This document shows, piece by piece, positions 15,558 to 17,974 of a stretch of 64,000 bases of DNA. The position numbers and the translations under genes were made by a program. This DNA comes from Planctomycetota bacterium. Lineage in GTDB: Bacteria; Planctomycetota; SZUA-567; H5-PLA8. The notes beneath the pieces are model-generated. The model was given only the letters and a program-made list of their open reading frames with translations, did no database searches and was not told the DNA's origin. Every line of letters starts with the position of its first letter. Position 1 is the stretch's first letter. The stretch is taken from assembly GCA_016200135.1 (NCBI GenBank), contig JACQFI010000067.1, positions 1 to 64,000 of the forward strand, in the 5' to 3' direction.

Positions 15558-16106
15558 ATGAAAAACGATTCCACCTACGGACCTTTTCACGCCACGACCG
15601 TGATTGCGGTGCGCAAAGGCAGCGCCGTGGCGATGGGCGGCGACGGGCAGGTCACGCACGGCAATACGGTGCTCAAGGCCAACGCCCACAAGGTCCGCAA
15701 GCTGAAAGGCGGGCAACTCGTCGGCTTCGCGGGCTCCACCGCCGACGCGTTCACGCTCATGGAGCGTTTCGAGGGCAAACTTGAAGCGCATAAGAACAGC
15801 TTGAAGCGTGCCGCCGTGGAACTGGCCAAAGAGTGGCGCAAGGACAAGTACCTGCGGCGGCTCGAAGCGATGCTTATTGCCGCCGACAAAGAGGCCCTGA
15901 TCCTGGTGACGGGGCAGGGGGACGTGGTGGAACCGGAGGACGGCATCGTCGCGATCGGGTCCGGCGGCGCCTTCGCGCTCGCCGCGGCCCGCGCCCTCGC
16001 CAAGCACACCAAGCTCGGCCCGAAGGAGATCGTGGCCTCCGCGCTAAAGGAAGCGGCGGAGATCTGTATTTATACGAACGCGAATCTGGTGATCGAGGAA
16101 CTGTAA
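15558..16106 (+). CDS. hslV: ATP-dependent protease subunit HslV
   Basis: The 182-residue peptidase subunit of the HslUV (ClpQY) proteasome-like protease degrades misfolded cytoplasmic proteins with Hsl[13 protein letters not shown] near the start includes the expected processing site before the catalytic threonine (T13 of this reading). The conserved [12 protein letters not shown] and [12 protein letters not shown] follow. The start was set at 15558 because the family begins just before FHATT; the frame is open upstream to 15447. hslV and hslU are normally adjacent, often overlapping or nearly so; here a GxxExxY cassette separates them. Confidence 0.95.
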
Positions 16107-16110
16107 AAGC

Positions 16111-16537
16111 GTCCACGAATCTTCACGAATGAACACGAATACGAAGGAACTGATCCTGAAGGACGAAGTGTACGCCATCATCGGAGCGGCGATGGAGGTG
16201 TATAACGTTCTGGGTCCGGGTTTTTATGAGGCCGTCTGTCAGGAAGCATTAGAAATTGAGTCGCGGAAACGTGGGATACCGTTCGAACCGCAGAAGGCGC
16301 TGAAGATTCTCTATAAAGGAGTAACCCTTAACAAAGAATACGTCGCGGACCTGCTATGCTTCGGTCAGAGCGTAGTAGAACTGAAAGCTCAAGATAAATT
16401 GGCCAGCCGTGATGCCTCTCAAGTGATCAATTACTTGAAAGCAACTGGTTGCAAGGTGGGCTTGCTGGTCAACTTTGGGTATGCTTCGCAACTTGAGTGG
16501 AAGCGTTTTGTTTCCTGATTCGTGAAGATTCGTGGAC
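16111..16537. mobile_element. 427-bp GxxExxY cassette bounded by perfect 20-bp inverted repeats
   Basis: The left end (16111-16130) and right end (16518-16537) are perfect 20-bp inverted repeats. Each is built from 10-bp words containing CACGAAT; on the left a third word follows at once (CACGAAT at 16114, 16124, 16134). The last two bases of the left repeat are the first two of the ORF's ATG, and the first base of the right repeat is the last base of its stop codon. So the repeats bracket the gene exactly. No target-site duplication is evident. It lies between hslV and hslU. Confidence 0.65.
16129..16518 (+). CDS. GxxExxY family protein (PD-(D/E)xK nuclease fold)
   Basis: A 129-residue member of the widespread, multicopy GxxExxY family, which is assigned to the PD-(D/E)xK superfamily. 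The naming motif appears as GFYEAVC, with Cys in place of the usual Tyr. The putative catalytic set is D74 (YVADLLCFG), E84 and K86 (VVELKAQ), with Q98 in the following helix (QVINYLKAT). Composition is lower in GC than hslV and hslU. The first codons (MNTNTKE) are themselves made from the flanking repeat word. Biological role is unknown; nuclease activity is predicted, not shown. Confidence 0.88.
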   Translation: MNTNTKELILKDEVYAIIGAAMEVYNVLGPGFYEAVCQEALEIESRKRGIPFEPQKALKILYKGVTLNKEYVADLLCFGQSVVELKAQDKLASRDASQVINYLKATGCKVGLLVNFGYASQLEWKRFVS

Positions 16538-16558: not shown

Positions 16559-17974
16559 ATGGCAGACCCTCAACTACCCGTGCTCGGCACCGACCCTTCC
16601 GAGCTGACGCCGAAGCAGATTGTCGCGGAGCTCGACCGGTACATCGTCGGGCAGAACGCGGCCAAGAAGGCGGTCGCGATCGCGCTGCGCAACCGCTGGC
16701 GGCGGCGCAAGCTCGACCCGGCCATGCGCGAAGACGTTGCGCCCAAGAACATTCTCATGATCGGGCCGACGGGCGTCGGCAAGACCGAGATCGCGCGGCG
16801 GCTGGCGGCGCTGAGCGGCGCGCCGTTCATCAAGATCGAGGCGACGCGCTACACGGAAGTCGGCTACCACGGGCGCGACGTGGAGAGCATGGTGCGCGAC
16901 CTGGTGAAAGCGAGCATCAACATGGTCCAGAGCCGCGCGCGCGAGGGCGTGCGTGCGAAGGCGGTGGAAGCGGCGGAAGAACGCCTGCTGGACGTGCTGC
17001 TGCCCGCGCCGAGTTCCTTCGCGCCTCAGAGTTCCGCGGGGTTCGGCTCCGCGCCGGGCGTCGAGGCGGGCGGTTCGGGTTCGGCGGAGCTTCACGAGAA
17101 AACGCGCGAGAAGTTGCGCCAGAAGCTCAAAGCCGGCGCGCTTGATGCACGCGAAGTGGAACTGGAAGTGGCCGCGTCATCCGAGGCCGTGGGCGGGATT
17201 TTCGCGCCGGCGATGGGCGAAGAGATGGGCATGGAACTGCAGGACGCGCTCTCGCGCATGATGCCCAAGCGCACAAAGCGGCGCAAGATGCCTGTGGCCG
17301 AGGCGCGCCGGCTACTCGAGGCGGAGGAGGCCGAGAAACTGATCGACCAGGAGGCCGTGACGCGCCAAGCGCTCGAGATGGCCGAGAACCTCGGGATTAT
17401 TTTCATCGACGAGATCGATAAGGTGGCGGGCTCGGGCAGAGACCACGGGCCGGATGTCTCGCGCGAAGGCGTGCAGCGCGACCTGCTGCCCATCGTCGAG
17501 GGCGCCTCGGTCTCGACGCGCTGGGGGATCGTCCGGACCGACCACATGCTTTTCATCGCCGCGGGCGCGTTCCACATGAGCAAGCCCAGCGATCTGCTCC
17601 CGGAACTCCAGGGCCGCTTTCCCATCCGCGTGGAGCTGGCCGACCTGACCGAGGAGGACTTCAAGCGTATCCTCACGGCGCCGAAGAACGCGATCGTGAA
17701 ACAGTACCAGGCGCTGCTCGCGACGGAAGGCGTGACGCTGGAGTTCAACGAGGATGCGCTGGGGGAGATCGCGCGCTTCGCCGCGCGAGCCAACCGCGTG
17801 AGCCAGAACATCGGGGCGCGGCGGCTGCATACGGTGATCGAGAAGCTGCTCGAAGAGGTGAGTTTCGGCGCGGCGGAGATGAAGGGCAAGACGGTGTCGG
17901 TCGACGCCAAGGTCGTCCGGGACCGCCTTCTGCCGATCCTGGAAGACGAGGATCTGGCGAAATACATCCTCTAG
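16559..17974 (+). CDS. hslU: ATP-dependent protease ATPase subunit HslU
   Basis: A 471-residue AAA+ unfoldase that feeds substrates to HslV. Walker A is GPTGVGKT (residues 69-76), Walker B IIFIDEID (D284, E285), and the sensor region GRFPIRVEL is present. The pore motif region TRYTEVGYHGRDVE is intact, and the C-terminus ends EDLAKYIL, the tail that docks into HslV. The I domain carries a Ser/Gly/Ala-rich insertion (about residues 145-185), making it slightly long. It starts 21 bp after the right end of the GxxExxY cassette, so co-transcription with hslV depends on read-through of that insert. Confidence 0.95.
   Translation: MADPQLPVLGTDPSELTPKQIVAELDRYIVGQNAAKKAVAIALRNRWRRRKLDPAMREDVAPKNILMIGPTGVGKTEIARRLAALSGAPFIKIEATRYTEVGYHGRDVESMVRDLVKASINMVQSRAREGVRAKAVEAAEERLLDVLLPAPSSFAPQSSAGFGSAPGVEAGGSGSAELHEKTREKLRQKLKAGALDAREVELEVAASSEAVGGIFAPAMGEEMGMELQDALSRMMPKRTKRRKMPVAEARRLLEAEEAEKLIDQEAVTRQALEMAENLGIIFIDEIDKVAGSGRDHGPDVSREGVQRDLLPIVEGASVSTRWGIVRTDHMLFIAAGAFHMSKPSDLLPELQGRFPIRVELADLTEEDFKRILTAPKNAIVKQYQALLATEGVTLEFNEDALGEIARFAARANRVSQNIGARRLHTVIEKLLEEVSFGAAEMKGKTVSVDAKVVRDRLLPILEDEDLAKYIL

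Follow-up and report, generated by a model that had tools for sequence, protein, structure and literature searches.

Between hslV and hslU, the genome of a Planctomycetota bacterium holds a small gene of the GxxExxY family enclosed by inverted repeats. The question raised by this locus is what kind of element the gene and its ends form, and which factor reads those ends. The stretch of DNA analysed, here called the window, is 64,000 nucleotides long. An earlier note, made from its letters, had described the gene as a minimal mobile cassette whose ends are acted on by the nuclease itself or by a factor in trans. The best explanation of the comparative sequence data is a one-gene cassette that reads its own ends, would have been inserted before two species split, and would move rarely with the aid of host repair. 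We put the probability of this reading at roughly 0.6.

The cassette between hslV and hslU

The packaging described earlier is confirmed. The two arms of the inverted repeat, at 16111–16130 and 16518–16537, are 20 nt each, 100% complementary, and separated by 387 nt. Allowing up to 3 mismatches, the window has no further match to them, and 0 were found in 100 dinucleotide shuffles. Gene and arms overlap at both ends, by 2 nt at the ATG on the left and by a single base on the right, where the TGA finishes on the base that opens the right arm. The arms are built of the word CACGAAT in the 10-bp phase that had been noticed, starting at 16114, 16124, and 16134 on the plus strand and at 16518 and 16528 on the minus strand, with the third left word falling within the coding sequence (Table 1). 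The whole cassette is ~430 bp long, and its G+C content of 48.5%, compared with 63% for the window, lies in the lowest 0.3% of equal-sized windows. It has the terminal inverted repeats of an insertion sequence; GxxExxY is its sole gene with a family match, and no transposase is encoded.

Table 1. Features of the cassette and its neighbours, in window coordinates.
Feature	Position	Strand	Support or remark
hslV (HslVU peptidase subunit), upstream neighbour	15558..16106	+	TIGR03692 E 1.3e-76
Left arm: GTC and three CACGAAT words at 10-bp spacing	16111..16140	+	Word cores kept in sister species
Left-arm CACGAAT words	16114-16120, 16124-16130, 16134-16140	+	First 20 nt of arm are the perfect inverted repeat
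GxxExxY PD-(D/E)XK nuclease-like gene, 129 aa	16129..16518	+	TIGR04256 E 1.2e-37; PF13366 PDDEXK_3 E 2.5e-37
Codon of residue 14 (Val), predictor of word letter 5 (here A)	16168..16170	+	Residue-word covariation
Codon of E34, Glu of GxxExxY motif	16228..16230	+	Invariant 175/175
Catalytic D74 ... E84-x-K86 (PD-(D/E)XK core)	16348..16386	+	D74 175/175, E84 174/175, K86 174/175
QxxxY motif Q98-x3-Y102 including residue 101 (Asn), predictor of letter 7 (here T)	16420..16434	+	
Right arm: two CACGAAT words (16528-16534, 16518-16524)	16518..16537	-	Complementary to first 20 nt of left arm
hslU (HslVU ATPase subunit), downstream neighbour	16559..17974	+	TIGR00390 E 1.1e-186

The window protein scores 128.9 bits against TIGR04256 (cut-off 35) and 128.3 against PF13366 (cut-off 22). 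Its namesake motif is incomplete, as G31 and E34 are present and Cys37 (16237–16239) replaces the tyrosine, a cysteine found at this position in 3 of 175 relatives. Since the catalytic E, D, and ExK are present despite Cys37, family membership by profile stands. The D...ExK core and QxxxY motif typical of RecB and Cas4 proteins are complete (D74, E84, K86, Q98, and Y102), and across the family E34, D74, E84, and K86 occur in 174–175 of 175 proteins and QxxxY in at least 170 of 175. By its motifs the window protein is a PD-(D/E)XK protein of the RecB/Cas4 type, with a predicted nuclease activity. Orthologous cassettes, where the ratio is computable, have a dN/dS of 0.05–0.22, which indicates that the protein is maintained. 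A sequence search of the PDB with the window protein returned no relative, PADLOC defence-protein models gave no match to it at E 0.1, and an AF2 model built from 8 sequences reached a pLDDT of 50, too low for comparing folds. GxxExxY proteins are annotated across bacteria, and no account of their role was found in open-access text, where the name turned up in two papers on other matters; a published pipeline labelled a gene in the cas4 position ‘GxxExxY’ (PMC8934634).

Comparison of hslV–hslU junctions places the cassette in time. A sister species (G001) carries the same cassette between the two genes, with an internal TAG in its GxxExxY gene. All of its CACGAAT cores are retained, the 3-nt spacers of its left arm are changed (ACG instead of CTT), and the sequence outside is also different. 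Because the cores are kept while the spacers vary, the 7-bp word and not the 20-mer is the conserved unit. The perfection of the 20-bp repeat in the window is incidental, and the earlier view of a perfect 20-mer as the element's end gives way to a repeated word. In G004 and G006, two further genomes from the family, hslV and hslU are adjacent with no cassette between them. The insertion therefore predates the split within the genus, and some members of the family lack it.

GxxExxY proteins were described in the earlier note as often present in many copies. The window genome holds only two such genes, which carry different words, and the arms of the second (C45) are built of CGCCAAG. The end sequence itself does recur. 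At one mismatch, CACGAATNNNCACGAA has 47 matches in this genome compared with 3 for a reversed-pattern control, and these matches include CACGAATCTTCACGAA at C12:90706 and C69:33399. Gene-less arms were counted by pattern search; most of the 47 matches lack a gene, and some form inverted pairs. At C9:112051–112903, a segment of ~800 bp lies between CACGAAT arms nested in arms of a CGCGGAG-type word; this segment (L003) holds a 191-aa ORF. Many gene-less CACGAA arrays of the genome are borne by a recurrent non-coding mosaic (AAATCCGAAATTCGAAGCACGAAATCCGAAAG ... AAAAAAGATGCAC), seen on contigs C55, C86, C91, C93, C109, C116, C128, C132, C134, and C140 of G000. The mobile-cassette idea was to be abandoned if the end sequence occurred nowhere else in the genome or if relatives carried the gene here with unrelated ends; neither is the case, since the end word recurs and the sister species has the same ends.

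Inverted arms around GxxExxY genes and a second cargo family

The architecture extends far beyond the hslV–hslU locus. The set comprised 175 distinct GxxExxY genes from Planctomycetota and from records of Nitrospirae, Chloroflexi, Bacteroidota, Cyanobacteria, and Desulfobacterales, and inverted arms exceeded the 99th percentile of shuffles in 156 of them. The first set alone gave 61 of 75, and 51 of 70 held-out genes were also bracketed. Among the controls, brackets were scored at none of 140 shifted positions and at 1 of 22 hslV loci, and left arms paired with the right arms of other elements gave 9%. The median arm-to-arm length is 482 bp. A typical arm consists of 2–4 words of the form CRCNRAK, repeated every 8, 9, or 10 bp, and at least two canonical words are present in 122 of the 156 bracketed elements. 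Cassette sites are shared between a Brocadiaceae record and the phylum of the window.

An element borne by phages or plasmids was considered and ruled out, as the phage set had no match to the GxxExxY family, and the family is rare on plasmids, being found on only 8 of them, and on 3 viral contigs, one of these with a damaged gene. On viral contig IMGVR_UViG_3300045125_000171 (L276), the left end of the cassette and ~20 nt of outside sequence are tandemly duplicated, and the gene contains stops.

Similar brackets surround a protein family unrelated to GxxExxY. The four-helix 23S-rRNA IVP genes (PF05635; L307–L336 and L045–L047) are flanked outside rRNA, too, by inverted arms in 29 of 33 cases, with words such as GGGGTTA and AGTTGTT at a period of 7 bp. 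Excess identity within IVP arms is 0.31 at shifts of 7 and 14, whereas GxxExxY arms peak at 9. Tentatively, the two kinds of cassette may be lineages of one undescribed minimal selfish DNA, in which one small protein would recognise a series of identical words on either side of its gene. Specificity would shift jointly in a few protein residues and in all words, allowing many independent cassettes per genome.

Covariation of protein residues and word letters

The word varies among cassettes, yet it is identical across the copies and both arms of a single cassette. Agreement within elements at letters 2, 4, 5, and 7 is 0.88, 0.73, 0.95, and 0.99, compared with pooled expectations of 0.50, 0.45, 0.54, and 0.67. 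Across families, the closer two proteins are in identity, the more alike are their words (rho 0.39; 0 of 500 permutations), and cassette pairs from the same genome are no more alike in word than pairs from other families at equal protein identity. A word dictated by the genome or by a host factor is therefore rejected, as word similarity tracks protein identity and not genome.

Two residues predict two of the variable letters. Thr14 accompanies G at letter 5 in 63 of 64 cases, and Ala14 or Val14 accompanies A in 15 of 15. At residue 101, inside the QxxxY motif, Thr or Ser goes with G at letter 7 (87 of 88), and Asn or His goes with T (27 of 30). For residue 14, pairs sharing no tree branch gave 12.7 in the same direction versus 0.2 in the opposite one, the best of 390 column tests, with the neighbouring residue 15 as runner-up; few of these independent pairs sit on strongly supported branches. 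Residue 101 has changed only ~4 times on the tree, so its link with letter 7 is a clade-level one. A word embedded in the coding sequence was considered as the origin of the link between residue 14 and letter 5, and rejected, since Thr14 is encoded by all four of its codons and the rule persists at arm distances above 20 nt.

The rule was fixed in writing before 70 new genes were fetched for a held-out test. It predicted letter 5 correctly in 29 of 30 cases and letter 7 in 35 of 35; the baselines were 22/35 and 26/35, and a nearest-neighbour guess for letter 5 reached 27/35. Among held-out proteins below 75% identity, the scores were 15/16 and 19/19. Both cassettes of the window genome obey the rule, with Val14–A and Asn101–T in the window and Ala14–A and Ser101–G in C45. 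Left and right spacers agree at 0.56 versus 0.33 expected, which suggests that arm pairing, possibly as a hairpin, may add to the constraint. At loci L274 and L275, which have the same flanking genes and proteins 74% identical, the words differ (CGAATGAAA-like and CGGAATAAA-like), possibly as the result of a recent change in specificity.

Across phyla, each version of the enzyme has its own version of the word, so it is probable that the cassette ends are read by the enzyme encoded between them. Recognition of the arms by the encoded protein, to which both the covariation and the held-out prediction point, is the best supported step of the explanation and is held with considerable confidence. 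Of the cassette proposed earlier, the unity of gene and ends thus stands, with the encoded nuclease as the likely reader; its mobility has fared less well, as no target duplication was found and orthologous copies persist vertically under purifying selection.

Movement, alternative readings, and known systems

Several observations bear on movement. At one site in family f28 (L116), the gene is present in 3 of 13 readable genomes, and the others contain only other phased or palindromic hairpins. Depending on the species, this spacer (L277–L303) holds a GxxExxY cassette, hairpins of 7-bp words, or GCGTAGCGCAGGC palindromes, and is a hot spot for several hairpin classes. A site in family f47 holds two cassettes with different words whose proteins are 31% identical, and one relative has an internal deletion at this site with both arms preserved. 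No relative gave the exact site before insertion to the base, as the hslV–hslU relatives are too diverged and the gene-less relatives at the L116 site mostly carry other hairpins. Flanking direct repeats were not in excess in the 156 elements, so that the fixed-length target-site duplication of insertion sequences is absent from this set. Copies in the same genome are mostly distant in sequence, with a mean identity of 0.43, so nothing points to bursts in the recent past. Many cassettes are orthologues that occupy one site in different species, in some cases even in different families, which means that movement must be rare. Mobility is nonetheless supported by presence and absence at one site, the empty hslV–hslU junctions of G004 and G006, different cassettes at a shared site, the deletion that spared both arms, the nesting of arms, and low G+C, and it is somewhat probable that GxxExxY cassettes are both cut by their protein and mobile.

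The strong purifying selection on the cassettes would also fit a host function, and the alternative that survives best, though unlikely, builds on this. The gene would be self-regulating and non-mobile, its words serving as an operator with a matching 3′ site or as site protection, and any movement would be passive. The start codon in or near the left arm, the selection at fixed sites, and the vertical persistence agree with such a gene, and the residue-to-base code proves recognition only and not cutting. However, an operator has no need of a second, inverted copy past the stop codon, which almost all cassettes have, and the arm-only and internally deleted copies, the different cassettes at one site, and the low G+C resemble mobile DNA.

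A still less probable alternative is an RNA element akin to the intervening sequences of 23S rRNA, in which the transcribed arms would form a duplex and RNase III would excise the cassette from the operon mRNA, sparing the expression of hslU. The arms are able to pair, their spacers agree beyond expectation, and the IVP family of 23S intervening sequences has the same bracket architecture. Pairing, however, requires neither identical tandem words within an arm nor covariation between residues and bases, and the sister species loses pairing in the spacer yet retains all word cores. Very improbable is a pre-existing host or third-party REP-like repeat moved in trans by another enzyme with GxxExxY genes as passengers, for although the many gene-less arrays and nested arms of the window genome and the hot-spot spacer with several hairpin classes would suit it, the two cassettes of that genome differ in word, the word tracks the protein and not the genome, the period depends on the cargo family (7 for IVP, 8–10 for GxxExxY), and residue 14 predicts letter 5 out of sample.

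The preferred reading, a cassette that reads its own ends, can be put as a series of steps. The one-gene cassette would have entered the hslV–hslU spacer before the two species of the genus split. The GxxExxY protein would bind the words at either end of the cassette that encodes it, one protomer per word at about one helical turn apart, and would cut or nick at the bound ends. Through host repair, the cassette may then spread, rarely, to new intergenic sites or replace a cassette at the same site, and gene-less arm pairs would be decayed or non-autonomous derivatives. The residue-to-base code offers the GxxExxY family a concrete candidate function, the reading of its own phased repeats. If this is true, a large group of the nameless phased repeats between genes in environmental genomes would be explained, and the family would provide a natural set of small proteins that read DNA with a specificity predictable from two residues. 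Such self-reading would point to a minimal selfish or mobile element of a kind that is widespread and not yet described; a search of the open-access literature found no earlier description.

Among known systems, nucleases of the Cas4/RecB type share with the window protein the motif I glutamate, D...ExK, and QxxxY in the same order; unlike them, it has 129 aa and stands alone in its cassette with no CRISPR context. Insertion sequences and MITEs resemble the cassettes in nesting, in giving rise to internally deleted derivatives, and in having terminal inverted repeats that the element's own enzyme recognises. GxxExxY cassettes differ from them in lacking a transposase, a fixed target duplication, and near-identical bursts, and in having ends made of tandem words. 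In the REP/RAYT system (PMC3733652), extragenic palindromic repeats likewise flank a dedicated nuclease-type gene and gene-less copies are spread in the genome. RAYT, however, is a tyrosine (Y1 HuH) transposase of single-stranded DNA acting with GTAG-tagged hairpins, whereas GxxExxY is a PD-(D/E)XK protein whose arms are tandem phased words without a GTAG tag. The intervening sequences of 23S rRNA with an S23/IVP ORF (PF05635) have terminal inverted repeats and an unclear function (PMC4990558), and like the cassette they are elements of ~430 nt with one small ORF between their repeats. Classic intervening sequences lie in rRNA and are cut from RNA by RNase III, whereas the window cassette lies between hslV and hslU, and the IVP arm period is 7 as opposed to 8–10 for GxxExxY. 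If GxxExxY proteins do read their own repeats, the long-standing riddle of what the IVP/S23 protein does would be tied to the bracket architecture of the GxxExxY cassettes.
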